Positions 6,852 through 44,435 of a stretch of 44,840 nt of DNA are shown here, piece after piece. The notes beneath the pieces were generated by a model. That model was not told the DNA's origin. It did no database searches and was given only the letters and a program-made list of their open reading frames with translations. The stretch spans positions 1 through 44,840 of the forward strand of contig PMIW01000162.1 in NCBI GenBank assembly GCA_003158365.1, in the 5' to 3' direction. Within the stretch, counting starts at the first letter, position 1. The number at the start of each line of letters is the position of its first letter. A program made the position numbers and the translations under genes. Source of the stretch: Ignavibacteriota bacterium (lineage in GTDB: Bacteria; Bacteroidota; Ignavibacteria; Tepidaquicellales; Tepidaquicellaceae).

Positions 6852-8552
6852 TCAAAGAAATGCTTTTAATGATGCATATAAATAAGATTCATGGCTTATT
6901 TGTGATAAATATATAAAATTTTGAAACTTATACTGGTATTGAATTTCAAGGAAATATTGCTTTATTGGCTCGAAAAAAACGTTAATAGTAAAAATATTTC
7001 TGTTAATTCTATCCCCCAGAAGAAATTTGCTGTTTATTTGATTATCACCCACCCCAATATTAATATTTCCTCCGTAATTGATAATTACATTTTTTGAGGA
7101 ATCATAATAAATTCCTTCTGCAGAACGCTGAAACTGATACAGCAAATTTATATTTAAGCGGGAAGTAATTTGATATTTCAATTTTAATGCGATTTCATCT
7201 GAATTTGGTGGCAAATCGTGTCCTAAAGATAAACCCCAGTTTGTATAAGAATCTTTATTCGAACGATGCGAGTAAATAAATGGATTCAACCTAGTATATT
7301 CCAGATTCAGATTAATATCGGGAATATTAAATGCACTAGCCCACATTGTACCGATTTGATATCCTATTTTATTGTCGAATGAAGTAATATCATTTTTAAA
7401 AATTGTCGAAAAATTTATATCATCAATTAAAAGCGATCCTTGTAACGCCAAATTTTTAACAGGATTAATTTCAAAATCCACTCCAATAAGTGTATTGTTA
7501 TCCGTTGTTTCTTTTGCGCCTGTATTCAAATCCGCAGAAGTAATAAAACTAATGGGATTAAAAAAGATAAAACTGAAAGGATTATTACTCATTATAACGC
7601 TCTCAAAATAACCGGCTTTAAAAATATCACTGAACTGAACCTTTAACCTGTGAAAAGCAATATTTTTTGATTTTAAAGGCGTACCAACTGAATCACCGTT
7701 AATAGAACCGTAAGTAAATGTGTATTTTATTTTTTTATAACTCAAATCCAGCATCATAAAATCAAATGGTGTCGTATTATTTGACAGAAATAATTTATCA
7801 ATATATCCATATCCGCAATTTAGTGCTTCCCTGCCAAGAGTTAATGAAAACCAGTTTGTTTTTGTTTGGTATCTCAGGCTTCCAGTAAAAAAATCATAAT
7901 TGTGGTATCCGTTAATGAAATCCGGATTTGCTTTTAAAACCGGGTCATTATCAACAGCAAATTGCAATCCTGAATTATTATCCCCTAATTTTTTTCCGGA
8001 AAAAAGATTTAATGAATAACCAATTCTGTTGTATAGTGTTCCTCTTATACCCATTCCAAAATCCCCTAAAAATATTGAATTGTCCCCCATATCACCTTTC
8101 TCATTTAGTGAGTACAAATTCCCTGTCAATCCCCAAAAAAATGTTGCATTTGTATCTGAGTAATTATATAAATACTTTTGTTTTTTATTCCCAAAAAGCG
8201 ATAATTCATTAAATTCTTTTAAAACAGAGACAGAATTATTTAAAGAATTATATAATTCATATTCGAATTCGATTTTAAAATCTTCAAGTTGATTTTTTTC
8301 TGTTCGAGTCAAATTTCTACTCTCACCAATTCTATTTATATATGCTGCAACTTCTCTCCTTGAAATTGGAGTCATTCCGGAATTGTAATCCGGAATTATT
8401 CTTTTTATTTGCATGATTTTCAAATATTCATAAATAGGGTGCGATACGGGAACAATTTCATTCTGGGAATATACATCTCCCCAAATTAAAATAATTGCAA
8501 TTAAATTAAGGGAAAAAACTGAAAATAAAATATTGTTAATCGTTTTAAACAA
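6852..8552 (-). CDS. Capsule assembly Wzi family outer-membrane protein
   Basis: Hydrophobic N-terminus, IYEYLKIMQIKRIIPDYNSGMTPISRREVAAYI motif seen in Wzi-family proteins, long beta-barrel-like remainder, at the end of a polysaccharide locus. Confidence 0.75.
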   Translation of the reverse strand: MFKTINNILFSVFSLNLIAIILIWGDVYSQNEIVPVSHPIYEYLKIMQIKRIIPDYNSGMTPISRREVAAYINRIGESRNLTRTEKNQLEDFKIEFEYELYNSLNNSVSVLKEFNELSLFGNKKQKYLYNYSDTNATFFWGLTGNLYSLNEKGDMGDNSIFLGDFGMGIRGTLYNRIGYSLNLFSGKKLGDNNSGLQFAVDNDPVLKANPDFINGYHNYDFFTGSLRYQTKTNWFSLTLGREALNCGYGYIDKLFLSNNTTPFDFMMLDLSYKKIKYTFTYGSINGDSVGTPLKSKNIAFHRLKVQFSDIFKAGYFESVIMSNNPFSFIFFNPISFITSADLNTGAKETTDNNTLIGVDFEINPVKNLALQGSLLIDDINFSTIFKNDITSFDNKIGYQIGTMWASAFNIPDINLNLEYTRLNPFIYSHRSNKDSYTNWGLSLGHDLPPNSDEIALKLKYQITSRLNINLLYQFQRSAEGIYYDSSKNVIINYGGNINIGVGDNQINSKFLLGDRINRNIFTINVFFEPIKQYFLEIQYQYKFQNFIYLSQISHESYLYASLKAFL

Positions 8553-8558
8553 AAAAAA

Positions 8559-9569
8559 TTAAGATTTGCTTTTATGATGTATTTTTAAATCGATAAGTTT
8601 TTCGGCTTTGTCTAATATGCCGAATGGGTGGTCAAAATTTTCCAATTCTAATTTATTAGGTTTTTTACTTATTTCCTTTTTCCAGTTAAGCTTTAAAATA
8701 TCCGAACCCGGAAACTGTCTTAGAATTTTTTTGTTTATTAAATATTGATCTACAGCAAGATTTTTTTCGAAATACGAAATTGCATTTGCCCCAAGCAGCG
8801 CGGCTTCACGCGTCAGTGTTCCACCTCCGGATAACACAATATCTGCATAACAACATAAAGAGCGGGCATCAAAAACAGGTAATTCTTTATGCCTTATTTC
8901 ACCTTCCCTGTTAATCCAAACTATCTGTGCATCAGGTACTTGCGATTTTATTTTTTCTATTAATATTTTTACTATACTTTCCTTGGAATGGTAAGACGCT
9001 AAAATCGGTTCCCCTCTTATTAATATTATCGGTTTTGTAGTTTTAAGATTTAATATTTTCAATATACTTTCATCAGGTTTGTAATCATATACATTCGCAA
9101 TCTCGCAAACCCCATCAAACTGCAGGATACTTACATGTGACGGAGTAAAGTCTCTTAGAATACTTTGTTCGATACAAATCGGGGCAATTAAGACGTTTGA
9201 AAGCGGACATACAAGCATGTTCTGAGGAACCATCAATTCATTATCAATATATGATACACTTGGTATTCCAAATCCCCAAGCTACCCTGGCAGCCTCAACA
9301 CTGTGCTTGTGAAGTAATACATCAATTTTTTGATCTTTGAAATAATCAGCAAGTTCAATTACCCTGACAGAACTTGTAATAATTTTACTGTAATGACTTT
9401 TTCCTCCGTGCTTTCCTATGATATCGGCATTAATTTTGTAGAGTTTTATTAATTCGGGAATCGGCTTGTAGTCGCGGGCAGTGTAAAAATATTCTTTAAT
9501 AAAATTTCCTACGTGCTGGAAAAAATGAACGTGGGGGCCATTGAAAATATCAATCCAGTATTTTTTCAT
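8559..9569 (-). CDS. DUF354 family protein (glycosyltransferase-like)
   Basis: MKKYWIDIFNGPHVHFFQHV N-terminus and the GGGTLTREAALLGANAISYFE donor-site-like motif, characteristic of DUF354. Confidence 0.8.
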   Translation of the reverse strand: MKKYWIDIFNGPHVHFFQHVGNFIKEYFYTARDYKPIPELIKLYKINADIIGKHGGKSHYSKIITSSVRVIELADYFKDQKIDVLLHKHSVEAARVAWGFGIPSVSYIDNELMVPQNMLVCPLSNVLIAPICIEQSILRDFTPSHVSILQFDGVCEIANVYDYKPDESILKILNLKTTKPIILIRGEPILASYHSKESIVKILIEKIKSQVPDAQIVWINREGEIRHKELPVFDARSLCCYADIVLSGGGTLTREAALLGANAISYFEKNLAVDQYLINKKILRQFPGSDILKLNWKKEISKKPNKLELENFDHPFGILDKAEKLIDLKIHHKSKS

Positions 9570-9584
9570 AATAAAATAATTTTT

Positions 9585-10523
9585 CTAAAATATAATAAAT
9601 AAAGATATGCAAAAAATTAATTCTATTGCATATACAAAATAAACAATATGTTTTTCGTGTTTGGGACCGTTAATTAAAACTAAGCGTATAAGAGAATAGT
9701 ATTTTTGTTCGGGAAAATGCAAAAGTCCGTCTTTAAGTATCAGAGGTTTTAATTCTGAACGAGATTTTACACCAATGCTTATATATTTAATCACTATATT
9801 CAATAAATGGGGAAGCATAACAAAAACAACAGGAAGTACATGGCCCGTCAGAAGACCCAATCCGAAAAATACCGACGGAGGGACAAGGGTTCCGGAATCT
9901 CCTATAAATATCTTCGCAGGATATTTATTTAAATACCAGAATATTGAATATCCCGTAAGAAGCAAAATACAAATACCGGCTTCCACATGATGACCATTAA
10001 TATAAAAATATATAGTCAACGCAAAACTTGATATTATCGTAACTCCTGATTCCAATCCATTGAAACCTGCTAAAAGATTATATGCATTCACAAGAATTGC
10101 ATAAGATATGCTAATAACCAAAACAAGCATAAGATCCGTTATTATGGAATTAGATATCATTCGAATATAATATATTGAATATACCGAACCAATAACAGCT
10201 GTATATACAAATTTTGGATATGGTTTTATATTCCTGAAATGGTCAATAAAACCAAGCATGCAAATTAAAGGAGTTGTAATCAGAAGTGGTGCAACATTCT
10301 GAAAATTAAAATAATACCAGTATAATATCATAGAAAACATAAAACTAATAGTAATAGACAAACCACCTTCCTCAGGAATTTTCGGTTTATCGGATTTATT
10401 TATATCTATTCCGTATATTCCTTTATCCATTAAATAATAGTTAAAATTCTGAAGCAGGATTCTTGTAAGCGCAGCATTTAACATTACAACGATAATGAAA
10501 ACAATGATATTATTTTCAGACAT
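9585..10523 (-). CDS. MraY/WecA/ALG7-superfamily phosphoglycosyltransferase (archaeal/eukaryotic GlcNAc-1-P transferase-like)
   Basis: Polytopic membrane protein with NAYNLLAGFNGLESG, KIFIGDSGTLVPPSVFFG and C-terminal INGPKHEKHIVYFVYAIELIFC, resembling ALG7/AglH rather than WecA. Confidence 0.8.
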   Translation of the reverse strand: MSENNIIVFIIVVMLNAALTRILLQNFNYYLMDKGIYGIDINKSDKPKIPEEGGLSITISFMFSMILYWYYFNFQNVAPLLITTPLICMLGFIDHFRNIKPYPKFVYTAVIGSVYSIYYIRMISNSIITDLMLVLVISISYAILVNAYNLLAGFNGLESGVTIISSFALTIYFYINGHHVEAGICILLLTGYSIFWYLNKYPAKIFIGDSGTLVPPSVFFGLGLLTGHVLPVVFVMLPHLLNIVIKYISIGVKSRSELKPLILKDGLLHFPEQKYYSLIRLVLINGPKHEKHIVYFVYAIELIFCISLFIIF

Positions 10524-11679
10524 TTTTTGAAACTTTTATTTTAAATAATAAATACGATAGAGCCGTGAACATCCATGCGTTTACCCATCTCATGTACGGA
10601 GTTTTATTTATGTACATTCTGGTCTTCTGGAAGAAATAATAGCCTTTTTTACTCTTCATATTTTCAATTCCCCACAAAGCTGATTTTACCGCAAGGTCGA
10701 GGTTACCAAATCTTGTCAGGGTCAGTATTGATTGTGCAATTGCCGTTGAATCGACAGGATTAAGTCTGTGCTCATAATATTTCGGAATTTCGTTATTATG
10801 AAAAAAATTCGTTAAATAAAATTTATAACCTTCTTCAAGGTTAGAAATATAAACATTTGAATTGGAATAGTAAATAAAATCATTTAAAGCATCAAGGATA
10901 TATCCTGTATGAAAATTATCAACCCATTTCCGGGCATCTCCTCTGGAATATGACCAGCTCCCGTTTTCATTTTGATTTCTCATTACATAGTCAACGGTTT
11001 TTTTCGCCTCATTAATAAGATTATCATCTTTCGTAACTGAATATACCTGGCTCAATAACCTTGCACCTTTCATTGTTGCATTTAAGACTTTTTGCTTATC
11101 ATTTGGAGAATATGAATAACAGAATGTCTCCCCATCGAAACTTTTATTCAAATCTTTCAAAGCAAAATTAGCAGCATCTTGACATAAATCAAACGATTTG
11201 GAATTATTTAACAGAGAATAATTAATAAACAAAGAATTCGTTATTATCCCGGTTGCCACAATTGTCGGATAGAATGCAGGAATTCTTGCATAACGGGCTT
11301 CCCAGTCAAAATCATATCCCCAGCATGCTCCGCTAAAATCTTTTGATTTCAAATCAATCAACTTGTTCAATAATTTATCTATCTCAGATATATAAAAACT
11401 TTTTCTGTCCACAAATATTACAGATAAATAAGAGTAAGCTTGAATACATAATCCTAAAGTTACGGGATTTAATCCTTTTTCTATGCCAAGCAAACTTCTA
11501 GTATTAAATGGTATTCTCCTGTAAACCTGCTGGCAGCCAAATCTAATAAATTTATTTGACCTTAATACTGGAAGTTTAAAAACAGGTGACATAAGTGAAT
11601 CATAGGGATCATACCCTCTGTAATCCTCTGATATTATGTACTTTTCGAGTTGTAATATACTTTCTTCTAATTCTTTCAC
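10516..11679 (-). CDS. Alpha/alpha-toroid-like protein associated with polysaccharide biosynthesis (unknown function)
   Basis: All-helical repeat architecture with NENGSWSYSRGDARKWVDNFHTGYILDAL-type toroid motifs. Overlaps the start of the phosphoglycosyltransferase gene by 8 bp. Confidence 0.6.
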   Translation of the reverse strand: MKELEESILQLEKYIISEDYRGYDPYDSLMSPVFKLPVLRSNKFIRFGCQQVYRRIPFNTRSLLGIEKGLNPVTLGLCIQAYSYLSVIFVDRKSFYISEIDKLLNKLIDLKSKDFSGACWGYDFDWEARYARIPAFYPTIVATGIITNSLFINYSLLNNSKSFDLCQDAANFALKDLNKSFDGETFCYSYSPNDKQKVLNATMKGARLLSQVYSVTKDDNLINEAKKTVDYVMRNQNENGSWSYSRGDARKWVDNFHTGYILDALNDFIYYSNSNVYISNLEEGYKFYLTNFFHNNEIPKYYEHRLNPVDSTAIAQSILTLTRFGNLDLAVKSALWGIENMKSKKGYYFFQKTRMYINKTPYMRWVNAWMFTALSYLLFKIKVSKNV

Positions 11680-11681
11680 AT

Positions 11682-13814
11682 CTATATCTGTCCTGGACTT
11701 CCTGTTTTTATTGATTCTAAAATTTTTAAAGTGACTAAAGAAGTATCAAAAATAGAATCAACGGATAAATTTTCTTTTTCTTTTCCTTCAAGCAATTTAA
11801 TAAAATGCAATACTTCTTCTTTATGTCCCTTGCTTCCGGAATAAGATTTTTTTATTTTCCTGCTGTTATTATAAAAAGTAACATCCCTGAAATTATTCAT
11901 TACGGCTGTTTTACCGCCGGAGAAAACTTCACAGTATTCTTTCGGCTGGGAACTGTCACCGCTTGCAACATAAAGAATATTTACAACGGAACCATTTTCG
12001 TATTTGATTGTGATGTTAACATTATCATTTTCAACCAATTTCGAATTATCTGTGTCTAATGATTCAGCGAAAACCTTAATCGGTCTGGAATCCGTTAAGT
12101 AAGAAATTGTATCAATAAAATGGCATACCTCACCGATAATTCGTCCTCCCTGCTCCGGAGACTGTATCCAGTGAGTCTTCGGGATCAATCCTGCATTAAT
12201 CCTGTAGTTAATTACATAAGGTTCGAGATTGTTACTATAGAATTTCTTAATATCGTTGAAAGGTTCAGAGAATCTTCTGTTAAATCCGACGAATAAAATC
12301 TTTTCCGGATTATACAGATTTTCTATTTCATCAAGTTCATCTGCATTTATTGCAATCGGCTTTTCAACAAAAACATTCTTCCCTTTTTTAATTGCTTGAG
12401 CTACATATTTTCCGTGAGAATCGTGACGCGAGGCTATAAATACAGTATCAATTTTTTCATCATTCAGAATCTCATCGTAATCAGTAGTGAAATACTCAAA
12501 ACCGAATTTATCTGAAACCGATTTCGAATTTACCGGCGTACCAGTACAAACTCCCCGTAAAGATACTTTATTTTTTATAAGATGAGGCAGTAGATTTGAC
12601 TGTGCAAAATTACCTGCACCTATAAAACCAACAACAGGTTTTGATGACAGAATTATTTTAGAATTTGAATTATAGAATTTCTTAACCGATAAATTCTCGT
12701 TTTCGGGATATCCAATCAATATTGCAATATATTTTTCACTTTTTTTGTCTGTTATTATATCATAAGCATTAAGAGCATTTTCAATTTCGAATCTGTGAGT
12801 AATTAGAGATTTTACATCAATCCTATTCTGTGAAATTAAGTCCAACACAGACTGCATATTCCTGTTTTCAGTCCATCTTACATAACCCATAGGATAATCT
12901 ATTCCTGCATCTTCATATTGTTTATCATACCTTCCCGGTCCATAACTGCAGGATATTTTCACATCCAGTTCTTTCTCATAAAAAGGTGACCGCGGAATAT
13001 CCGTTTTCACAGCACCAACTATTACAATGCACGATTTTTTTCTTGCATATTCTAGAGCAAACTCTACAGGTTCATTCGATTTTGTTCCCGCGGTAATAAT
13101 CACAGCATCAGTGCCATATCCATTAGTAAACGATTCAACAGTCTTAATAGAGTCTGAATCAGATAAACAGCATATATCACATCCCAGCTTTTCAGCCAGT
13201 TCAAAATTTGATTTATTAATATCGATTCCTATAACTTTACATCCATTCGCTTTAAGAATTTGAACTGTTATAAGTCCTATTAATCCCAGACCTATCACCG
13301 CTGCAGATTCTCCTATATTAATTTTTGCCTGTCTTACACCCTGCATGGCTATCGAACCCAATGTTGTAAAACTTGCCTCTTCGAATGAAACATTATCAGG
13401 AATTTTAGCAATTAAATTTTTGGGAACACTTATTACTTCGGAGTGATTTGCCGAAGAGCCTGCACACGCAACCCTGTCACCCGGTTTAAATTCATCAACA
13501 GATGATTCAATTACAACTCCTGCACAGCTGTATCCTAACTCCTTATAATTATCGAGACGATTTTGTACTTTGCTATAAGTAGCGGTCAGTCCTTCCTTCT
13601 TAACATTCTCCAATACCTGTTTGACTAGGTCGGGACGCGATTTCACTTTACCAAGCATTGATGCCTGTGCTGTTTCTACCGATGTCTTCTCAGTTCCGGA
13701 ACTAATTACCGAGTTTACATTTTTAACAAGAACATACCCCTTTTTTAAAACCGGTGCAGGTAAATCTTCAATTTTCATTTCCCCTGATTTCTGATACTGT
13801 ATAATTTGTTTCAT
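11682..13814 (-). CDS. Bi-domain oxidoreductase: zinc-type alcohol dehydrogenase-like domain fused to Gfo/Idh/MocA domain
   Basis: N-terminal MDR features (GYSCAGVVIES...GDRVACAG; AAVIGLGLIGLITVQILKANG) followed by the Gfo/Idh/MocA signature (VGFIGAGNFAQSNLLPHL...VFVEKPIAI). Confidence 0.9.
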   Translation of the reverse strand: MKQIIQYQKSGEMKIEDLPAPVLKKGYVLVKNVNSVISSGTEKTSVETAQASMLGKVKSRPDLVKQVLENVKKEGLTATYSKVQNRLDNYKELGYSCAGVVIESSVDEFKPGDRVACAGSSANHSEVISVPKNLIAKIPDNVSFEEASFTTLGSIAMQGVRQAKINIGESAAVIGLGLIGLITVQILKANGCKVIGIDINKSNFELAEKLGCDICCLSDSDSIKTVESFTNGYGTDAVIITAGTKSNEPVEFALEYARKKSCIVIVGAVKTDIPRSPFYEKELDVKISCSYGPGRYDKQYEDAGIDYPMGYVRWTENRNMQSVLDLISQNRIDVKSLITHRFEIENALNAYDIITDKKSEKYIAILIGYPENENLSVKKFYNSNSKIILSSKPVVGFIGAGNFAQSNLLPHLIKNKVSLRGVCTGTPVNSKSVSDKFGFEYFTTDYDEILNDEKIDTVFIASRHDSHGKYVAQAIKKGKNVFVEKPIAINADELDEIENLYNPEKILFVGFNRRFSEPFNDIKKFYSNNLEPYVINYRINAGLIPKTHWIQSPEQGGRIIGEVCHFIDTISYLTDSRPIKVFAESLDTDNSKLVENDNVNITIKYENGSVVNILYVASGDSSQPKEYCEVFSGGKTAVMNNFRDVTFYNNSRKIKKSYSGSKGHKEEVLHFIKLLEGKEKENLSVDSIFDTSLVTLKILESIKTGSPGQI

Positions 13815-15842: not shown

Positions 15843-16262
15843 TTATAATAATCCAATTAATTTTTTTATATTGATTTTTGGATTCCGATGTTCATGCTCT
15901 GTTTTTCCGGTAATAAAAGCAGTTGTTTCTTCTTTTATTTTTTTCTTAATGACTAAAACACTGTCATAAAAATGCAGTGAATTTACCGTTTAAGTATAAC
16001 GGTTAGGTTTAAACTTTTTTTGTTCAGAATATAATGCATTTAAATAATCAATTAATTTTTTACTGAATTCGATAAAAGTATTATATCTTCGAAAGCCACC
16101 TCCGAATTTAAGGTAGTATGATGTATGTAAATCTTCGCATAAATAGACTCCATCAGGTTTAATATGTTCAAATAAATATTTAAATGAAATTTTCTGGTGC
16201 GAAACCATATGACTGCCGTCATCAATCAGAGAATATTGTTTATCATTTAATAAATTAGTCAT
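15843..16262 (-). pseudogene. 5'-truncated SAM methyltransferase remnant with an in-frame TAA
   Basis: LIDDGSHMVSHQKISFKYLFEHIKPDGVYLCEDLHTSYY...KPNRYT*TVNSLHFYDSVLVIKKKIKEETTAF...LIGLL*. The frame continues past the TAA at 15990-15992 with the conserved-looking C-terminus SLHFYDSVLVI. The expected N-terminal SAM-binding half is absent because the adjacent GT2 gene occupies 16269 onward. Confidence 0.8.
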
Positions 16263-16268
16263 TTATTT

Positions 16269-17291
16269 TCAGTTTGGAGTTTTTCTGAATATTCTCTTGG
16301 TAAGGAATAATAACGAGTCGCATATTTTTGTACCGAAAATTAATAAAGCAATAAAATAAATATAGTAATAAATAGTATTGTTAATTTTAACTCTGTCGTT
16401 TAATTGCCTGAAATAAAAAATAAAATCTATTGTTCCGACTCTCTGCCGTTGAATTGCAAGGACTCTGTATGAATATTTTGAAAGATTTTTTCTTAATTTC
16501 TCCGAAAAATTAATCTTATACTTCTCATCTAAATAATCTGAAATTCTAAAAAAAGACATCATAAAATTAACGGAGTTTCTTATGGTTATAATACCCGGGT
16601 CATAAAGATGCTTTTCGTTTTCCGAATTACCAAAAAACGGGACTTCCGTTTTTTCTTTCATGGAATAAACGATAGGTATATCACAATATCCGCAAGGGTA
16701 CTTTAAGACAACTTCCGAAAGCAAATAAATCTGATATAGCAAGGTTCCGTTAAATATATCTGTTGAAAGTCCGGTTAGATATTCCCTTTTGATATTAAAT
16801 CCCGACATTGCAACACTAATTCGGAATAATTTCAATAAAGTATCGACTCCCGGCTCAAATAACTGTGACTTCGAAAAATAATTCATTGGTTCTTCCCAGC
16901 CCGAACTATGCAAGTATTTCCAGTTTTTCAGAATGTAACCTAAATTTCTATTTTTCTTTACAAATTCAATGTAGCTGCATAAATTATTTTTAATAAAAAA
17001 ATCATCATCACCCATTAGCATCATATATTCCCCTTCACCCTTCTCGACTAACTTTTTTATGTTTCCATCAAACCCGAGATTTTCTTCATTTTCAATATAC
17101 TTTACGTCAAATAGTCCTTTATCCCTGAACTGAACGATGACTTTTCTAATCTCCAATCTCTTCGGACTATTATCCTCTATCACTAAAATGTCTATATCAT
17201 CTGAACATTCGGAAGGAATACTGTTAAGTAATCTCGATAATGTTTCAGGTCTGTTATAAGCCGGAATGCTTATTGTGATAATTTTATTCAA
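16269..17291 (-). CDS. Glycosyltransferase family 2
   Basis: ITISIPAYNRPETLSRLLNSI...ILVIEDNSP...MLMGDDDFF (GT-A fold, DDD). Confidence 0.88.
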   Translation of the reverse strand: MNKIITISIPAYNRPETLSRLLNSIPSECSDDIDILVIEDNSPKRLEIRKVIVQFRDKGLFDVKYIENEENLGFDGNIKKLVEKGEGEYMMLMGDDDFFIKNNLCSYIEFVKKNRNLGYILKNWKYLHSSGWEEPMNYFSKSQLFEPGVDTLLKLFRISVAMSGFNIKREYLTGLSTDIFNGTLLYQIYLLSEVVLKYPCGYCDIPIVYSMKEKTEVPFFGNSENEKHLYDPGIITIRNSVNFMMSFFRISDYLDEKYKINFSEKLRKNLSKYSYRVLAIQRQRVGTIDFIFYFRQLNDRVKINNTIYYYIYFIALLIFGTKICDSLLFLTKRIFRKTPN

Positions 17292-19119: not shown

Positions 19120-20004
19120 TTACAAACGAAACCATTTTTCGGGGACTATATTATCATATTTAATATCACTTACGTACCATTTTTTGGGAGCAATGACAAT
19201 GGTTTCCTTACTATCTGCAATCCAGGCAGCCCACCATGGAAAAGTGCTGTTTGGGATTATAAAGTGCTTACAGGAATACATGAGTTTAAATTTATTTTTA
19301 AATTTATATCCTGAATGCTCGTCTCCGATAAAAACATGCTTTTTATCAATCTTCACATTCTTTCGGCACCACTCTATATCATCTGAAAAAATATAAAATA
19401 CTGGATCGGATGTTTTTGAACACAATAATTCAATTGCGTTTTTGTAGTAATAATCAAAGTAAGAACCTGTGAGTGTACCCAGATATTTATCCTGAAGATA
19501 TTCTTTCCTCCTGTAGCTCAAACAAACCGAATTAGTATTTGCAATTTCTCGGAATATATTTTCGGATTCCGATAAAGAATCATTTATCAAAAACCCCTTT
19601 TTAATTATTCCAGATATTTCGGAAAAGTATTTATGGTTTTGCCAGTATCCTATTAAATAGCAATTGTCTTTCGCTTTTAAATATTCTTCGTTGAAACCAT
19701 TGCCATTTTCCGATACAATATTTTTATACCTGTGAAATTTATTTAATAAATTATAAATGGTATAAGTTGTATTTCCTTTTGGCATAATAAATTGAGATAT
19801 TTCCTCTTTAGATGCAATTTTCAAATCAAGATTAAAAATATCGAGGTCGTAATTTCTGAAAATCATAGATTTGGTGTTATATCTTGAATTTAAGTGAGTT
19901 ATATCCACTTTCAATTCCGTATTATTTCTGACAGATATAGCTTTTCCAAATGCATACTGAAACATCTGGTTACCCAAACCGCCAATTAACCTTGAGATAA
20001 TCAT
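19120..20004 (-). CDS. Glycosyltransferase family 11 (alpha-1,2-fucosyltransferase-like)
   Basis: MIISRLIGGLGNQMFQYAFGKAI N-terminus, CLSYRRKEYL (HxRRxDY-like), FYIFSDDIEWCRKN and FIIPNSTFPWWAAWI. Confidence 0.88.
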   Translation of the reverse strand: MIISRLIGGLGNQMFQYAFGKAISVRNNTELKVDITHLNSRYNTKSMIFRNYDLDIFNLDLKIASKEEISQFIMPKGNTTYTIYNLLNKFHRYKNIVSENGNGFNEEYLKAKDNCYLIGYWQNHKYFSEISGIIKKGFLINDSLSESENIFREIANTNSVCLSYRRKEYLQDKYLGTLTGSYFDYYYKNAIELLCSKTSDPVFYIFSDDIEWCRKNVKIDKKHVFIGDEHSGYKFKNKFKLMYSCKHFIIPNSTFPWWAAWIADSKETIVIAPKKWYVSDIKYDNIVPEKWFRL

Positions 20005-21254
20005 TAATAATATATTTTACCTTCCACTGACAATTCTTTGGATTCTTCTGTTTCCAAAACTTCATATTCATCTCTCTCTTCAATCAATGTTATTGTTATA
20101 AAGAAATAAAATAGAAAAAATACATCAAAATATATAAATACGTTATCGGTAATAAATAAAACATTTGTATAGATTACATATAATAGCGTCTTTAAATTCC
20201 TGGCATTAATTTTATAAAGAAAGTATACCCACAAACAAAAAACGACTGGACCGAACTCAAGAAAGTTTTTTAAAATATCCGAATGAAAATTATAATTCAT
20301 TCCAACTATATCCGATATAGTCTTTGTCACGAACCCAATCCCATCTCCCATCCAGTCAAAAACATGTTTATCCATGTACATGTTATAAATCCAGAAACGC
20401 CCTGTCGTAATATCTCCTGCATTGGTACCCGTTAAAAGGAAAATAAAATCATCATAATCCCCAAGTGTATAATGATACAAAAAATATACAATTATCAAAT
20501 TGATTAATACCATAATCACTGAAATTGTGACTTTTTTCATTTGTGACCACTCTTTTTTACCTGATAATTTATAGATAACAAAGACTAATAGTAAAGCACC
20601 CATGGCAATTCTTTTTGAAGACAAAAGACTTACGAATAATGCGTAAATAAAATATCTGTAATTTTTCTTTAATGCAAAATATATCATAAAATATCCCATG
20701 TAAAGTCCGTGGGATGCTATTCCCATAGTTTTTTCCGCTTTCAAAAATAAATTTATCGGATTCACAAAAATCGGATCTGTAAAACCTCTTTCCGGTGAAA
20801 GCAAGTGAATGGCATAAGTAAATACAATACCCCAAAAAAGAAATTTGATATAAAAATCTTTATTGTTATGATTATAATATTTAAACAGAAAAAAAGTAAA
20901 TAATAATGGTGTTGTAAAAAACAGTGTTTCCCCAAAAAAGTTCATATACAAAGGTTTGCTAATATACACAACAAACAATGACTGAACAACTATAATGAAA
21001 TACATTATCATATTTTTATAATACAGCTCATCAAACAGATTAAAATAACTTCTTCTCGGTAAAAGAAAGAATGGTGACAAAAACGGAACTATATATTTTA
21101 TGTATCTCAATTCTCTGAAATACGGTATCATAGTGAATGTCATAGAGATAAGAAATAATACCAATAAAACCATAAATGGTAAGTGGTTTGTCTTTTTATC
21201 AACTTCTGTATCGGCTTCTATATTGTATTCTATGTCAGCTTCCTTGTATCTCAA
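20004..21254 (-). CDS. Polytopic membrane protein, candidate Wzy-type polymerase
   Basis: About 10-12 predicted TM segments with a large periplasmic-type loop. Located among GT and flippase genes; no other polymerase candidate in the locus. Confidence 0.65.
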   Translation of the reverse strand: MRYKEADIEYNIEADTEVDKKTNHLPFMVLLVLFLISMTFTMIPYFRELRYIKYIVPFLSPFFLLPRRSYFNLFDELYYKNMIMYFIIVVQSLFVVYISKPLYMNFFGETLFFTTPLLFTFFLFKYYNHNNKDFYIKFLFWGIVFTYAIHLLSPERGFTDPIFVNPINLFLKAEKTMGIASHGLYMGYFMIYFALKKNYRYFIYALFVSLLSSKRIAMGALLLVFVIYKLSGKKEWSQMKKVTISVIMVLINLIIVYFLYHYTLGDYDDFIFLLTGTNAGDITTGRFWIYNMYMDKHVFDWMGDGIGFVTKTISDIVGMNYNFHSDILKNFLEFGPVVFCLWVYFLYKINARNLKTLLYVIYTNVLFITDNVFIYFDVFFLFYFFITITLIEERDEYEVLETEESKELSVEGKIYY

Positions 21255-22677: not shown

Positions 22678-24084
22678 TTATGTGGTTTTAAATATTACAG
22701 GCTTGTAACTGAAAATAAGAAAAATCAAAAATCCGGAAACGATAAGATTAAGAATAAGTTCCAATGCAAAATTAATTACAAAAAGATTTATTAAATAAAA
22801 ATAAGCAAAACCTGCAAGCAAAATTAAAAACCTAAAGAAAAATTTACTTAACGGAATGAGATTGGATTTTTTCACATAATTTCTAACGTCAATATATTGT
22901 ATAAGAAACAAAATCAGGAATGCAATCATAGTTGAAACAGAAGCAAACTTATAGCCATAAACGGGTATGAAAATAATATTCAATGCAATATTGATAGCAG
23001 CCGAAATCATAGAAAATAGGGATATTCTCAGGTTCCGTTTGTAATAAAAAGCGTAATTTGCAAAAAGAAGATAAAGGAATATAAAGACATAGCCCAATAC
23101 AACAAAAGGTATAATTTCAAAAGACGAATAATATCTCTTCTCTCCGAGAATTATTACAAGCTCACGGGAGAATACAATAAGCAGTAATGCTATTGAAAAA
23201 ATTATACTTATAAACTTAGGAGATAGGTTTATAATATCTCTGTATTTTTCATCTCTCAATTTTCCATAAAAAATAGGTGCCCAGGATTGATTCATTCCCA
23301 TTATCACAACATTAATAACCATGCCAATATTATATGCAAATGCATACAAACCCACATCGTTTTCCCCCGAATTTATGTTTATAATTATTCTATCCGAAAA
23401 ATTCAGTATAATTTGTGTAAGTGCATGTGGAATCAAAGGAAAACCGACAATAAATGTATATTTTATATACTTAATATTGAAATTAAATTTAGTCAACTTT
23501 AATAACTGCGGTAGCAAAACTACAAATAATATTGCGGATACACATAATTCAGCATACAATCTTCCGAGATATTTTGAATTCTCTAAATTTACAATAAGAA
23601 TAATAGAAAGAATTGTTATACACGAATATTTCAAGATATTATATATAGAATATTTTCTGCTGTTTTGTGTCATTTGAAAATAACTCGATATCAAAGTAAT
23701 CGGGATACTCAGTATACATGAAATGAGTGCATACACTATTATTGACTTATCAACAGAAATTAAACCCGCAAGAGGATTTAGAAAAAGCAAAATTAGAACA
23801 GTAATAACCGAACCGGTAACAGAAATAAAAATAATATTCGATCCAAGAAATTCATCATAAACTTTATCTTTTTCAAAAAAATACAAATTAATTGAACTAT
23901 CTAAACCCATCATAAAAAATATAGAAAAAAATCCGACAAATGTCGTAAATATTGAAATCACTCCGTAATCCGAAGGAGAAAGCAAACGGGTGAATATTGG
24001 CATCGTAAGGAAAGTTAATCCTTTTAGAAAAAAATTTGCTGATATATAATTTTTTGAATGACCTAGAAAACTTTTTAATTCCAA
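22678..24084 (-). CDS. Wzx-type polysaccharide flippase (MOP superfamily)
   Basis: FLKGLTFLTMPIFTRLLSPSDYGVISIFTTFVGFF is a typical Wzx N-terminus; 12-14 TM segments. Confidence 0.92.
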   Translation of the reverse strand: MELKSFLGHSKNYISANFFLKGLTFLTMPIFTRLLSPSDYGVISIFTTFVGFFSIFFMMGLDSSINLYFFEKDKVYDEFLGSNIIFISVTGSVITVLILLFLNPLAGLISVDKSIIVYALISCILSIPITLISSYFQMTQNSRKYSIYNILKYSCITILSIILIVNLENSKYLGRLYAELCVSAILFVVLLPQLLKLTKFNFNIKYIKYTFIVGFPLIPHALTQIILNFSDRIIININSGENDVGLYAFAYNIGMVINVVIMGMNQSWAPIFYGKLRDEKYRDIINLSPKFISIIFSIALLLIVFSRELVIILGEKRYYSSFEIIPFVVLGYVFIFLYLLFANYAFYYKRNLRISLFSMISAAINIALNIIFIPVYGYKFASVSTMIAFLILFLIQYIDVRNYVKKSNLIPLSKFFFRFLILLAGFAYFYLINLFVINFALELILNLIVSGFLIFLIFSYKPVIFKTT

Positions 24085-28683: not shown

Positions 28684-29717
28684 TTGTTTTCTATGAACTC
28701 CCAGTTTAACGGGGTTCCTCTTTTAATGTTTGTATTGGATTTTTTGCCTAAAACATCATAATAATATTTGGGATGCAATCCATACCCGGGTCTGATTGAC
28801 TTAATATTTTCTTTTGTGAAAACTTCACCTGTTTTTATATCTTTAACGACAAAAAGTGAACGCGCAAATACTTTATTCTTTTTTCCCTTTTCACCTAACA
28901 CATAAGTTATTTTTCCTGTAGCTTTTTCTGTTTCCCTGATTAACTTTGTCATTTGCGAAAACTCTGATGGCTCTATGGAAAATACCCAGTCTGTTCCCCC
29001 AAGTTTTCAATCTAGTATAAAATGTTTTTCGATAATCTTTGCTCCTAAAGCAGCTGCTGCTATAGGGACACCAATCCCTGTTGTATGATCTGATAAACCT
29101 GCTATACAACTAAATCTTTTTGCCATATCAGGTATGGTAAGCAGATTCGCTTCTTCAATTGGAGCGGGATATTCCGATGTACACTTTAGTAAAGCTATTT
29201 GATTATTACCTACATCTTTACAAGCATTTACCGCTTCTTCAATATCATTAAGTTCTGCCAAACCTGTGGAAATTACTATTGGTTTTCCTTTCGATGCAAT
29301 ATATTTAATAAGGGGAATATCAAATATTTCAAAAGATGCAACTTTATACATAGGGACATCAAGCTCTTCGAGAAAATCTACCGCTGTAAAATCAAAAGGT
29401 GTGGAAAAGAATATTAAATCTAAACTTTCTGCATGCTTCTTTAATTTACTGTGCCACTCCCATGGCGTATATGACTGCCTATATAGCTCATACAGTGTTT
29501 TACCGTCCCAAAGTGAACCGTTATTAATCCTAAAATATTCATTATTACAATCTATTGTCAGCGTATCTGCTGTGTAAGTCTGAATTTTAATTGCATCAGC
29601 GCCGGATTCTTTTGCAGCGGAAATAGTTTTCAATGCTAAATCGATACTTTGATTGTGATTAGCAGAGAGTTCTGCTACAATAAATATTTTTTTAAAATCA
29701 AAATTATTTTTCATCAT
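28680..29717 (-). pseudogene. pseI: NeuB/PseI-family nonulosonic acid synthase interrupted by an in-frame TGA at 29007-29009
   Basis: N-terminal part IFIVAELSANHNQSIDLALKTISAAKESGADAIKIQTYTADTLT...IEKHFILD, then TGA, then in the same frame KLGGTDWVFSIEPSEFSQMTKLIRETEKATGK...KENIKSIRPGYGLHPKYYYDVLGKK (SAF domain). No frame change is needed. Confidence 0.85.
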
Positions 29718-35241: not shown

Positions 35242-36420
35242 TCATTTAATAAAGCTAATGAACTGAATGATTGTTTCCACCACAAATTCAATTTGTTCGT
35301 CCCTTAGTTCCGGATAAATAGGAAGAGCTATTGTTTCGTTAGAAGCCCTTTCTGAATTTACAAAACTTGTATTCTCAAATCTTGATTTCAGGCTTGCGAA
35401 ACATTCCTGCTTGTGAAAAGGAACGGGATAATATATTTCCGTACTGACTTCTTTTTCTGTCAGATGCTTTCTTACATCATCGCGATTCTGCACCCTGATT
35501 ACATACTGATTGTAAATGTGATAGTTTTTAAACCCGCTGTCTTTATATATTGCTCCGGGCAATAATACTTTTTCCTTACTGCTGAATTCGGTTATGCCCT
35601 CTTTACCTGCTACACCCGATTCCATAAATAATTTTGTATAAAGACCTGCATTTTTTCTGCGTTTTTCGGACCAGCTGTCGAGATGTGGAAGTTTTACGTT
35701 TAATACTGCTGCCTGAATTGCATCGAGCCTGAAGTTACCTCCGATGATTTTGTGATAATATTTTGGCTTACCCCCGTGCACTCTCATAATCCTTAACTTT
35801 GCACCAAGCTCATCATTATTAGTGATTACAAGTCCGCCGTCACCAAAGCATCCAAGATTCTTACTCGGGAAAAATGAGAAACAGCCTATATCTCCGTGGT
35901 TACCTACTTTTCTTCCGTCTTTATACTGCACTCCTATTGCCTGTGCTCCGTCTTCGATTACTTTCAGGTTATGTTTCTTTGCAAGAGCTGTTATTTCATC
36001 CATTTCAGCGGATTGACCGTAAAGATGAACAGGAATAATTGCTTTTGTTTTACTTGTTATTTTGTTCTCAATAGATTTTACATCTATGTTGTATGTCACA
36101 GGATTCGAATCAACAAAAATAGGTATCGCATTCATTCTCGAAACAACACCTGCAGTCGCGAAGAATGAATAAGTCGGTACAATAATTTCGTCACCGGGTT
36201 TTATGTCTATTGCCATTAAAGCGATAAGTAATGCATCCGTTCCAGAGGAGACCCCGATTGCATACTTGCAGTCAAGATATTCACACATTGATTTTTCCAG
36301 TTTTTCTACTTCCGGACCAAGAATAAAATATTGTGACTCAGCTGTCCTAATTAACGCTTCATCAAGTTCATTCTTCAAGGTTTTATATTGCGCTTTTAAA
36401 TCAAGTAATGGTACTTTCAT
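35242..36420 (-). CDS. DegT/DnrJ/EryC1 aminotransferase (WbpE/WlbC-like)
   Basis: VPLLDLKAQYKTLKNELDEALIR; YFILGPEVEKLE; KVIEDGAQAIGVQY; FSFFPSKNLGCFGDGGLVITND. Confidence 0.9.
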   Translation of the reverse strand: MKVPLLDLKAQYKTLKNELDEALIRTAESQYFILGPEVEKLEKSMCEYLDCKYAIGVSSGTDALLIALMAIDIKPGDEIIVPTYSFFATAGVVSRMNAIPIFVDSNPVTYNIDVKSIENKITSKTKAIIPVHLYGQSAEMDEITALAKKHNLKVIEDGAQAIGVQYKDGRKVGNHGDIGCFSFFPSKNLGCFGDGGLVITNNDELGAKLRIMRVHGGKPKYYHKIIGGNFRLDAIQAAVLNVKLPHLDSWSEKRRKNAGLYTKLFMESGVAGKEGITEFSSKEKVLLPGAIYKDSGFKNYHIYNQYVIRVQNRDDVRKHLTEKEVSTEIYYPVPFHKQECFASLKSRFENTSFVNSERASNETIALPIYPELRDEQIEFVVETIIQFISFIK

Positions 36421-36469: not shown

Positions 36470-37045
36470 TTATATTTCTTTAACAAGATTATTTTCCAAC
36501 TTGTACTTTTTCTGTGATTTATCACAAAAAGCAATTCCGTCTTTATCGAATTTTAATTTTTTACCTGCTTCGCTCAGCCACCCTACAACTCTGGCAGGAT
36601 TACCCACTGCAAGTGCAAAATCCGGAATATCTCTGGTAACTACAGCCCCTGCTCCGATAAATGCGAACCTGCCGATTGTATGTCCGCATACTATCGTGCT
36701 GTTCGCACCCAGCGACGCACCTTCTTTTACTAAAGTCTTTAAATAATATTGCGCACCTACCTGGGGATACTTGCTTCTCGGATCAATTATATTTGTAAAA
36801 ACCATCGATGGACCGCAAAATACGTAATCTTCCAGCTCGACACCTTCGTAAACAGATACGTTGTTTTGTATCTTTACAAAATTTCCGATTTTTACGTTAT
36901 TACCGATATTTACATTTTGTCCCAGAACACATTTGCTCCCTATTTTAGAACCGGATTGAACGTGGGAGAAATGCCACACTTTGGTACCTTCGCCAATTTC
37001 GACATTTTCATCAACAACGGCGAATTCATTTACATAATAATTCAT
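36470..37045 (-). CDS. Left-handed beta-helix N-acetyltransferase (WbpD/WlbB-like)
   Basis: VNEFAVVDENVEIGEGTKVWHFSHVQSGSKIGSKCVLGQNVNIGNNVKIGNFVKIQNNVSVYEGVELEDYVFCGPSMVFTN hexapeptide repeats. Confidence 0.9.
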   Translation of the reverse strand: MNYYVNEFAVVDENVEIGEGTKVWHFSHVQSGSKIGSKCVLGQNVNIGNNVKIGNFVKIQNNVSVYEGVELEDYVFCGPSMVFTNIIDPRSKYPQVGAQYYLKTLVKEGASLGANSTIVCGHTIGRFAFIGAGAVVTRDIPDFALAVGNPARVVGWLSEAGKKLKFDKDGIAFCDKSQKKYKLENNLVKEI

Positions 37046-37093: not shown

Positions 37094-38062
37094 TTATTCA
37101 TTTAATTTGACCTGCGAAATTTCCAGAACATCAAGTACATCCTTGGCGTGAACACCGTCCGTCCTCGGAGTTTTATCATTTATTATGCAGTCAAAGAAAT
37201 GTTTTTGCTCTTCTTCAAGCGGAGCTTTTTCCGGATAACTTATAACTTCATAATCCGAATCGAATTTTTCTATCGACCCGTTCACTATGCTGAATCCCTT
37301 TTTATAAAATTTAAGCTTTTCATTTTTCGAACTGTCCTGGAATACAAGCATCCCCTTGTCTCCTATTACTACTACACGGTGCTCTTTGAACGGATGAAGC
37401 CAGCTTACGAAAATGTGTGCGTGTACATTGTTCGGATATTTCAGGTATGTCAGAGTAGTATCTTCAATTTTTTCCTGCACAAATGCAGCCCCTTTAGCTC
37501 CGATATAAACAGGTTTGCTTCCTGTCAGGAACTGAATTATAGAAATATCGTGCGGGGCAAAACTCCATAATATGTTTTCTTCACTTCTTATCGTACCTAA
37601 ATTCAGCCTGTTGCTGTAAATATACTGAAGATTACCTATCAACCCTTCATCTATCATATCTTTCATTGTAAGTACAGCCGGATGATATAACAATACGTGC
37701 CCTACCATCAATTTTAATTTCCTTTCGTTCGAAATATTTATTAATTCAAAGGCTTCAGCTGAAAGCAAAGTAATCGGTTTTTCAACAAGTACATTTTTAT
37801 TTGCAAGAAGACATTTTTTTGCAACATCAAAATGAGTTTCTGCTGAGGTTGAAACAATTACTGCATTTATTCCGGAATCGTTTAAAACGTCATCCAGGTT
37901 AGAAGTAAATTTAATTTCTTTCGAAACCTGCTCAACCTTGCTTATGGCTGAGGAATTTATGTCACAAACAGATATTAAATTTTTATTTAAGATTTTGTAT
38001 GCGGTCTTAACATGATTCATTCCCCATTTCCCGCAACCTATAACTGCTAATTTTATTTCCAA
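37094..38062 (-). CDS. Gfo/Idh/MocA oxidoreductase (WbpB/WlbA-like)
   Basis: KLAVIGCGKWGMNHVKTAYKI; NVLVEKPITL; LMVGHVLLYHPAVLTMKDMI. Confidence 0.9.
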   Translation of the reverse strand: MEIKLAVIGCGKWGMNHVKTAYKILNKNLISVCDINSSAISKVEQVSKEIKFTSNLDDVLNDSGINAVIVSTSAETHFDVAKKCLLANKNVLVEKPITLLSAEAFELINISNERKLKLMVGHVLLYHPAVLTMKDMIDEGLIGNLQYIYSNRLNLGTIRSEENILWSFAPHDISIIQFLTGSKPVYIGAKGAAFVQEKIEDTTLTYLKYPNNVHAHIFVSWLHPFKEHRVVVIGDKGMLVFQDSSKNEKLKFYKKGFSIVNGSIEKFDSDYEVISYPEKAPLEEEQKHFFDCIINDKTPRTDGVHAKDVLDVLEISQVKLNE

Positions 38063-41593: not shown

Positions 41594-43867
41594 TTAAGAT
41601 TTTTTTACCTGTTTACTTCTTCTTTTATCCAATCCATCCGGTCTTGAATAATAATAATAATAATTGTAATAATATCCGTAAGCACTCTTCAGACTAAAAT
41701 TATTAAGCACGGAGCCAAGAAACTTATGAGAATCGATCTGATTTATTCTTTGATACGTTTTCAAAAATGCATCCATCGGTGTCTTATTTGCCTGAACAAT
41801 CAGGATTGTTCCGTCTGATATTCTTGATAAAATTTCCGGGTCGGTAACAGAAATAAAAGGAGGAGAATCAAGTATTATCATATCATAAATACCTCTTAAC
41901 TTTTCAAGAAAATCTACCATTTGTTTTGAACCCAGTAACTCAGATGGATTTGGCGGTATAGTTCCGCTCGTTATGTAAAATAAATTATCCAGTTTCGTCG
42001 AACGCGTTATCTCTTCGAGAGAAACATTGGAAAACAAATAATCGCTTAACCCCGGAAATCTTTCCGCTTCAAATACAGCGTGAATTCTCGGCTTTCTCAA
42101 ATCGCAATCCATTAACAAAACTTTTTTATCGGCAAGGGCAAAACTTCCTGAAAGATTCAGGGCAACTGTGGTCTTTCCTTCTCCCGGAACGGAACTTGTA
42201 ACTAATATAGTTTTTAATTCGGACTCCAGCTTTGAATAAAGTACCCGCGTTCTTAATGCCTTAAAAGATTCAGATGCGATTGCATTCGGCTTGTTGGCAA
42301 CAATGAACTCAAGCTGGGATGAACCGAGCTCCTTTAACTCTTCAATTGACGGTACCCAGGCTAATACAGATACTCCTTTCTGTTCAATCTCTTCGGGATT
42401 CTTTATTGACCTGTCGAGATAATTTCTGAGGAATGCAAAACCGATTCCAAGTATCAGTCCCAATACCGAACCAATCAATACTATCAACTGGCGGTTTGGT
42501 TTGGAAGGGCTTGTAGGAAATAAAGCTTTATCGATAATATTTACGTTCCCAAGCTGGGCTCTTTCATTAATAAGTGCTTCCTGGTATTTTTCTTCCAGTG
42601 CCAGAAATAATTTCTCGTTTGATTTTCTTGCTCGCTCTAATCTTGCTAATTCCATACTCTGTGAAGGTAACTTTCCAAAATCTAATTCATATTTGGATAA
42701 TAACCTGTTTAACGAATTTACTTTCGCCTTATTGGATTGTACCTCGATACTTTCTTCTATAAATTTCTGGTAAATTGTGGATTTGTCTGAAGGTGTATTT
42801 GATAATAATCCCGTTTTAATTGCTTTGATTCTGTCTTCATAATCCTTTTTTAAAGGTGCTAACTTTTTATCGTAATCCGACTTTACTTTATCAATTAATT
42901 TTTGATCAGCTGATACAGTTATATCCAGATTTTTCTGTATCTCAATTTCCGCAATTTTCTTCTGAAGCTCATTTACATACGGCTGGTTCAATTGTCCTTC
43001 TATATAACCGGGAATGCTGTTATCGATTTTTTCAAGTTCGTTTTTTAATTCGGAATACGCCTTCTCCTTTGAGGTTAAATCGACATCAGCCGCATTTTTA
43101 GCGGCTTCGAACGAGGAAATCTGGTCAACGAGTTTTCTTGCCTGGTCATCCAGAAACATAATGCCGCCTTTTTGCTGGTAGTCCTGCAACGCGGCTTCGG
43201 AATTTGATAAATCGTTAATCCTCTTGCTTTTTTCTTCTTCCAAAAAGTTTTTTATTGTTGTCAGCTCGCGTCTTGCAAAGTCAATACTGTATTTTAAATA
43301 AGTTTCCGCATAAACATTTGCAATCAACTGCGTTTCATAACTCGAAGGACTTTGAACTTCTATTTCTGCTATATCAAGACCTCTCTTCTGATTTATGGCT
43401 ACAATGCTTCCCAATATTGATGTCAAAGAAGATGCGGGAATTACATCAACTTTTACTTCCGGATTCCTGTTTACCAGATAAAAATAAAGGCTCTTATTCG
43501 GATTGACTCTGAAACTATCAAGTAGTGTGGCTGCGACCTTTCCCCTTATTGTATAACTTTTCAGAATTTCTATTTCATTCGAAATATATCTGTCTGTCTG
43601 AAAATCCTGAAACTCGGGAATTAATTGCGTGGATAATATGCTTCCCTGCGGCCTTACAATTTTTAAACTTGTTGTTGTCTTGTAAATATTAACTGCGTTC
43701 ATTACATATATAACTGTCACTAAAACACTGGCAGAAAAAATCAATAAGATTGGCAATATATTTGACCTTAAAACATTTAAATACTCTTTAAGGTTATTCG
43801 AAGGATGCGGGGAAGTGATTATCGGTTTGGTTCCTTGTCCACCCTGTATTTTTACACCTTGATTCAA
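41594..43867 (-). CDS. Wzc-type chain-length determinant / tyrosine autokinase
   Basis: Wzz N-terminal domain with TM; KTILVTSSVPGEGKTTVALNLSGSFALADKKVLLMDCDLRKPRIH (Walker A/A'); MIILDSPP; C-terminal tyrosine cluster YGYYYNYYYYYS. Confidence 0.95.
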   Translation of the reverse strand: MNQGVKIQGGQGTKPIITSPHPSNNLKEYLNVLRSNILPILLIFSASVLVTVIYVMNAVNIYKTTTSLKIVRPQGSILSTQLIPEFQDFQTDRYISNEIEILKSYTIRGKVAATLLDSFRVNPNKSLYFYLVNRNPEVKVDVIPASSLTSILGSIVAINQKRGLDIAEIEVQSPSSYETQLIANVYAETYLKYSIDFARRELTTIKNFLEEEKSKRINDLSNSEAALQDYQQKGGIMFLDDQARKLVDQISSFEAAKNAADVDLTSKEKAYSELKNELEKIDNSIPGYIEGQLNQPYVNELQKKIAEIEIQKNLDITVSADQKLIDKVKSDYDKKLAPLKKDYEDRIKAIKTGLLSNTPSDKSTIYQKFIEESIEVQSNKAKVNSLNRLLSKYELDFGKLPSQSMELARLERARKSNEKLFLALEEKYQEALINERAQLGNVNIIDKALFPTSPSKPNRQLIVLIGSVLGLILGIGFAFLRNYLDRSIKNPEEIEQKGVSVLAWVPSIEELKELGSSQLEFIVANKPNAIASESFKALRTRVLYSKLESELKTILVTSSVPGEGKTTVALNLSGSFALADKKVLLMDCDLRKPRIHAVFEAERFPGLSDYLFSNVSLEEITRSTKLDNLFYITSGTIPPNPSELLGSKQMVDFLEKLRGIYDMIILDSPPFISVTDPEILSRISDGTILIVQANKTPMDAFLKTYQRINQIDSHKFLGSVLNNFSLKSAYGYYYNYYYYYSRPDGLDKRRSKQVKKS
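41647..41664. repeat. Trinucleotide microsatellite (AAT)6 inside the Wzc tyrosine-cluster codons
   Basis: Direct read of AATAATAATAATAATAAT on the + strand. It encodes consecutive Tyr residues on the minus strand. Confidence 0.9.
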
Positions 43868-43901: not shown

Positions 43902-44435
43902 TTAATTTTTTCTTGTAATCGATATTACTAAAATAGCTAATGATAATAGAACCGATGCTACTGAAACAACAATTGATAAATTATCTTTGAAAAACATTCT
44001 TGGTTCGCCCGGGAATACAATAATATCGTTCGGTTTTAAAGATATATTTCTTTTATAATTTTGAACAACTTTTTCACCCCAGAAAACATCATTATAATCA
44101 AAAACCATCATTTCGTCCTTAGTTATATTTAATGTATCATTCTTTGGTCTGAACAAACGTATATTCTCCAGTTTAGCATCTACAACAGGTCCTCCGGCAT
44201 ATGAAACTAAATCTACTAACGTTGAACCTTGCGGAATTATGTACTTTCCCGGATATTTGACGTAACCCCAAATACTGACTTCTATGTTAACTTTATCCTT
44301 TTCCCCGTAATTATAAAACCCGCCCTGCTGCGAAAATACCTGGTTCATCCCCACTCTTTCTTTATCCTGAGCTTGTGTAATTCCCGAAATGATAAAAAAT
44401 GAAAGTGTGATTAAAAAAAAGCTAATTTTATTCAA
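43902..44435 (-). CDS. SLBB-domain polysaccharide export-like protein with C-terminal TM
   Basis: Signal peptide; VEVSIWGYVKYPGKYIIPQGSTLVDLVSYAGGPVVDAKLENIRLFRP (SLBB); C-terminal hydrophobic helix. Directly upstream of the wzc-like gene. Confidence 0.82.
   Translation of the reverse strand: MNKISFFLITLSFFIISGITQAQDKERVGMNQVFSQQGGFYNYGEKDKVNIEVSIWGYVKYPGKYIIPQGSTLVDLVSYAGGPVVDAKLENIRLFRPKNDTLNITKDEMMVFDYNDVFWGEKVVQNYKRNISLKPNDIIVFPGEPRMFFKDNLSIVVSVASVLLSLAILVISITRKN

Follow-up and report, generated by a model that had tools for sequence, protein, structure and literature searches.

Bacterial capsule initiation is credited to two kinds of enzyme, WecA/TagO-like and WbaP/PglC-like proteins. 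The WecA/TagO enzymes belong to the same superfamily (PF00953) as Alg7/DPAGT1, the polytopic GlcNAc-1-P transferase of eukaryotes (GPT), whereas the WbaP-type initiators are monotopic proteins (PF02397 with CoA_binding_3) of unrelated fold. A published phylogeny recovers two great clades, with most archaeal and eukaryotic sequences in one of them (Lombard 2016, PMC4973528). The archaeal GlcNAc-1-P transferase AglH (S. acidocaldarius, M. voltae) acts in N-glycan synthesis and, as has been proposed, pairs with a MurG-like second enzyme, Agl24 (PMC8993221).

The window, that is, the whole stretch of DNA analysed here, is an entire contig (C13) of 44840 bases from an uncultured Ignavibacteria bacterium, whose 3.0 Mb assembly has an estimated completeness of 88.6%. 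It carries a capsule locus whose candidate initiator is a polytopic phosphoglycosyltransferase (PGT) that resembles Alg7/DPAGT1 more closely than it does WecA/TagO.

The capsule locus and its candidate initiator

Five closely packed minus-strand genes (13814 down to 6852) encode, in order, BIDO, TOR, PGT, a DUF354 protein and a Wzi-like protein (Table 1). They make up one end of a capsule locus of the Wzx/Wzy type, which extends as far as a Wza-like gene at 44435; since the window is a whole contig of an incomplete assembly, the locus may be cut upstream of wza. The end of TOR overlaps the start of PGT by 8 bases and a further 15 bases separate PGT from DUF354, which thus follows the transferase gene directly, as the initial annotation had it.

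That annotation also held that no other initiator is evident in the locus and that PGT may therefore start repeat-unit synthesis. A second initiating transferase was looked for in the window locus and none was found. In the sister genome, an Ignavibacteriae MAG (JACREY010000012.1), a 588 kb contig contains the locus in full. No PF02397 protein is encoded anywhere between wza and the outer-membrane gene that follows wzi, and the sole polytopic PGT there is the Alg7-like one, which supports the predicted role as initiator. Monotopic initiators are encoded outside the locus in both genomes (the window's genome has five PF02397 matches there and the sister four) and a WecA-type protein lies on another contig of the sister genome; an initiator acting in trans is possible in principle. 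Contamination of the MAG is unlikely because the order of the module and the flanking non-capsule genes match those of the sister genome.

Table 1. Features of the capsule locus, in window coordinates
Feature	Coordinates	Strand	Description
Wzi-like protein	6852-8552	minus	Capsule assembly outer-membrane protein; PF14052
DUF354 protein	8559-9569	minus	336 aa; PF04007; proposed MurG-superfamily glycosyltransferase acting second
PGT	9585-10523	minus	312 aa; polytopic PF00953 phosphoglycosyltransferase, Alg7/DPAGT1-like; proposed capsule repeat-unit initiator
NxLAGxNGLExG motif	10045-10079	minus	N149-G160 of PGT; Alg7 type, from alignment and pattern search
TOR	10516-11679	minus	387 aa; weak Pec_lyase similarity; conserved DUF354 neighbour in the class
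BIDO	11682-13814	minus	Two-domain oxidoreductase (zinc-dehydrogenase and Gfo/Idh/MocA); part of conserved module
Wzy-like membrane protein	20004-21254	minus	Named from sequence character and position; no Pfam match
Wzx-like membrane protein	22678-24084	minus	Named from sequence character and position
DegT aminotransferase	35242-36420	minus	Of the gene set flanking WbaP in related loci
WbpD-like acyltransferase	36470-37045	minus	Of the gene set flanking WbaP in related loci
Gfo/Idh oxidoreductase	37094-38062	minus	Of the gene set flanking WbaP in related loci
Wzc-like export gene	41594-43867	minus	Far end of locus; assigned from sequence
Wza-like export gene	43902-44435	minus	Far end of locus; assigned from sequence

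Related loci carry WbaP-type proteins

The pairing of DUF354 with PGT is upheld. Relatives that share the BIDO-TOR-DUF354 module carry a WbaP-type enzyme, with the same presumed role, instead. Nine other DUF354 loci have a monotopic PF02397-type protein, and in five of these (L070, L071, L077, L078 and L079) BIDO, TOR and DUF354 are followed by DegT, WbaP, Gfo/Idh and WbpD-like genes. In L077 an Epimerase_2 gene interrupts the module ahead of DUF354, and a gene of similar size occupies that place in L078. The PGT and PF02397 types occur together in none of the loci examined; about ten DUF354 loci have neither in the stretch fetched.

The genes of the module differ in their histories. Between the window and L070, L077 and L079, BIDO is 59-62% and TOR 52-56% identical (TOR 58% against L078), whereas the window DUF354 is only 30-34% identical to the DUF354s of those three relatives, which are 40-67% identical among themselves. 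A tree of DUF354s places the window pair outside a clade of 27 sequences from the class (97/95), and kinship with the DUF354s of the bacterial family is rejected (AU p 0.0006). This discordance between DUF354 and the genes around it is most simply read as a joint arrival of PGT and DUF354, which would have displaced an older DUF354 and WbaP. Three further genes (DegT, Gfo/Idh and WbpD-like) likewise have only distant counterparts in the relatives (31-49% identical), and by these comparisons more than one exchange has taken place in the locus. GC content does not single out either gene (PGT 0.30, DUF354 0.34) in a window that ranges from 0.26 to 0.38.

Family and likely function of DUF354

The DUF354 protein scores 196.3 bits against PF04007 (cut-off 22) and is a clear member of that family. 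The initial annotation called its start familiar from archaeal genomes. A reading of DUF354 as an archaeal signature is rejected, given its presence above the Pfam cut-off in 85 of the 294 genomes from the class to which the window belongs and the separate clade that the haloarchaeal copies form in the DUF354 tree. All 11 plasmid records that have a DUF354 match are haloarchaeal; in six such loci (L084, L109-L113) DUF354 lies among surface-polysaccharide genes and genes of unknown function, and not beside a PGT.

Searching the literature for bacterial Alg7-like PGTs or for DUF354 function, we found nothing beyond an earlier survey, which predicted a glycosyltransferase for DUF354 with few catalytic residues kept (PMC4520260). 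When a profile of 18 DUF354s was compared using hhalign, it matched Epimerase_2 (8.8e-6), MurG (2.2e-5, over 237 columns) and PseG (3e-4), with about 40 other proteins used as controls giving 0.02 or worse. The top match raises the tentative possibility that DUF354, as a nucleotide-sugar enzyme akin to UDP-GlcNAc 2-epimerase or to the hydrolase PseG, feeds the pathway and is not a glycosyltransferase; several haloarchaeal DUF354s adjoin UDP-sugar dehydrogenases, and Epimerase_2 adjoins DUF354 in two relatives. However, the catalytic histidine of the epimerase HRP/HRREN motif has no counterpart in the DUF354 alignment, the MurG match is the longer and opens at an N-terminal histidine (His13) that is at least 90% conserved, and DUF354 appears to have been exchanged jointly with the initiator. 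These observations favour DUF354 as, probably, a MurG-like second-step glycosyltransferase.

As such, DUF354 would act right after a polytopic PGT, as MurG and Alg13-Alg14 do and as is proposed for Agl24; its similarity to these enzymes is remote. Work on Agl24 stresses a conserved histidine in the MurG/Alg14 group (PMC8993221), to which that of DUF354 may correspond.

An Alg7-like phosphoglycosyltransferase

PGT scores 83.9 bits against Glycos_transf_4 (PF00953; cut-off 27), which places it in the superfamily. Its NCBIfam matches are ranked archaeal MraY (45.9 bits), WecA (33.6) and MraY (30.7), where the respective cut-offs (450, 326 and 192) all lie far above these scores, and the HHH of MraY is missing from its aligned C-terminal region.

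The motifs are more informative. PGT contains NAYNLLAGFNGLESG and a GIDINK loop, both common to human DPAGT1 in alignment, and the motif that had been claimed for it is present at N149-G160 and recurs in the 79%-identical sister orthologue, as does the C-terminal tail. Whilst LAGxNGLExG and GxDxNK are common to PGT and DPAGT1, LAGxNG is seen in none of about 40 aligned bacterial WecA/TagO/MraY proteins; these read (L/M)xDGxDGL or close variants where PGT has LLAGFNGL, and their loop at the GxDxNK site differs also, being of the RKxH type in most WecA rows. With Alg7/DPAGT1, PGT further shares the longer NAxNxLAGxNGLExG pattern and FxGD. Two of the motifs published for AglH (PMC5222938) are likewise found: DxxK (CL I; D40-I-N-K43) and NxxNxxxGxxGLxxG (CL III, of LAGxNG type; N146, N149, G153, G156L, G160). 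The third, DDxxN/D (CL II), is not intact, reading D94-H95-F-R-N98 with the same DH in the sister. The proposed likeness of the C-terminus to ALG7/DPAGT1 stands in so far as a GPxHE tail is present and in register with DPAGT1, but the similarity of the tail alone is not significant (-0.1 bits). PGT is thus Alg7-like in sequence, though a strict membership test does not file it with Alg7/AglH. It differs from Alg7/DPAGT1 in being short (312 aa), without the large loop region that precedes the DPAGT1 tail, and in its bacterial capsule setting, where the carrier is presumably undecaprenyl phosphate.

Among solved structures human DPAGT1 is the sole significant relative; a profile of the only two PGT orthologues available (window and sister) scored it at 1e-9, against 0.012 for MraY, whereas the control, a typical WecA-type protein from the same class, gave the reverse ranking. 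AlphaFold models built from two sequences were unusable (pLDDT 39 and 33). In a tree of bacterial and eukaryotic rows (the two PGTs, 32 WecA/TagO, two MraY and DPAGT1), PGT joined DPAGT1 at 90/94; in a second tree, from which the long-branched E. coli WecA was left out and to which a presumed yeast Alg7 sequence was added, the value was 95/94. Placement within ordinary WecA/TagO, the outcome that would have told against the initial annotation, was thus not obtained, but neither was it statistically excluded, as AU tests of PGT on the WecA side gave p values of 0.20 and 0.13 in the two trees, both with long branches.

PGT might then be a fast-evolving bacterial relative of WecA/TagO that still initiates the capsule, its likeness to Alg7 being convergent or due to long-branch attraction. 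The AU results, an overall identity of about 30% to WecA-type proteins, and the shortness of PGT and its lack of the large DPAGT1 loop region are consistent with this. We consider it unlikely, however, as several separate PGT motifs agree with DPAGT1 and with no bacterial row and the structure ranking is reversed relative to the bacterial control. The Alg7/DPAGT1-like character of PGT is upheld by motifs, structure ranking and tree alike, and placement on the DPAGT1 side is favoured, though not proven.

The active site and the Asp-to-His change

Equivalents of DPAGT1 Asn182, Asn185, Asn191, Phe249 and Asp252 are all present in the PGT alignment. The second aspartate of DDxxN is His95 in PGT and is changed in the same way in both genomes. 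At the matching position in AglH, the D100A protein is inactive and fails to complement in yeast (PMC5222938). In the DPAGT1 structure the counterpart aspartate bonds Ser57 and Thr253 and touches neither metal nor substrate (PMC6218659). PGT is under strong purifying selection (dN/dS of about 0.04 against the sister orthologue, with dS near saturation) and is therefore probably functional with His95.

It is quite improbable that the capsule is initiated by a monotopic or WecA-type enzyme from another part of the genome while PGT is inactive or does another job: the histidine and the initiators outside the locus speak for it, but the purifying selection, the retention of the change in both genomes, the siting of the initiator inside the module in related loci and the absence of metal ligation by the DPAGT1 aspartate all speak against it.

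A proposed initiator and second transferase

We infer the catalysis, substrates, order of action and lateral origin of PGT and DUF354 from sequence comparison, as follows. PGT would initiate a Wzx/Wzy-type capsule repeat unit by moving a HexNAc-1-phosphate, most likely GlcNAc-1-P, from a UDP-sugar to undecaprenyl phosphate (substrate and lipid carrier being assumed from the pathway), so that an Alg7/DPAGT1/AglH-like polytopic enzyme would stand in for a WbaP enzyme or for a WecA enzyme, with which it would share pathway position and presumed reaction. Like AglH, it would be expected to pair with a MurG-like second enzyme, in this case DUF354, which would add the second sugar to lipid-PP-HexNAc. 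The two genes would have entered as one cassette in place of an ancestral DUF354 and WbaP-type initiator, with BIDO and TOR staying; the initial annotation raised archaea as a possible source of PGT. We put the chances of this proposal as a whole, that is, PGT as locus initiator, DUF354 as second transferase and entry as one cassette, at about even. A more far-reaching version seems doubtful to us: that an Alg7/AglH-type initiator transferred between domains and carrying a natural Asp-to-His change runs the pathway with the MurG-like DUF354, presumably on undecaprenyl phosphate, as a system modular enough to replace that of WbaP.

If the proposal is true, the replacement of a WbaP enzyme by an Alg7-like one, along with its neighbouring glycosyltransferase, would widen the list of capsule initiators and make Alg7-type chemistry accessible in a bacterial system, whilst DUF354, a family with no assigned function, would gain a testable role as second-step transferase. 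Such an exchange also suggests that the initiator and the enzyme of the second step are replaceable as one unit, and the pair would add another case to MraY-MurG, Alg7-Alg13/14 and AglH-Agl24.

Distribution of PGT

PGT is found in two of the 29 genomes of the family, both of the window's genus, and in the same two (window and sister) of 294 in the class, where the remaining threshold-level matches are fused frames of 640-670 aa, those read being WecA-type. A 35-base degenerate LAGxNG pattern, run against 396 genomes of the phylum, had no match outside the window. Within the phylum sample PGT is thus confined to one genus. A scan of 84,980 species, using search peptides that are weakly conserved, returned the sister only. 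Plasmid searches with PGT or a DPAGT1 fragment yielded only bacterial WecA/TagO/MraY-type proteins, viral contigs held no PGT relatives (pattern matches lay in an unrelated frame) and phage records gave only WecA/TagO-like matches (23-31% identical), the names of these records referring to Firmicute phages or to faecal samples.

Other features of the locus and its relatives

The window's genome has a further locus (L083; contig C168, 5912-10017) in which two divergent DUF354 genes lie near an additional Wzi-like gene and a monotopic PF02397 initiator of 355 aa; L082 is similar. The sister and relatives have an asparagine-synthase-like gene, possibly for amidation of a uronic acid, ahead of BIDO (L064, 3264-5153; L070, 3786-5861); it is missing from the window. 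An otherwise empty gap at about 15900-16270 holds a minus-strand methyltransferase-like remnant (LLNDKQYSLIDDGSHMVSHQ...) with stops and no start. The NeuB-like gene at 29007-29717 (within 28690-29717, minus strand) is cut by an in-frame stop, past which NeuB-like sequence (KLGGTDWVFSIEPSEF...) goes on in the same frame; the gene therefore appears to be a pseudogene or to contain a sequence error, the sister frame being 346 aa long. Finally, a minus-strand gene at 24134-25198 matches PF07388 (alpha-2,8-polysialyltransferase; 33.7 bits) and lies near NeuB-, PseG- and CMP-synthase-like genes, which suggests a capsule that contains nonulosonic acid.
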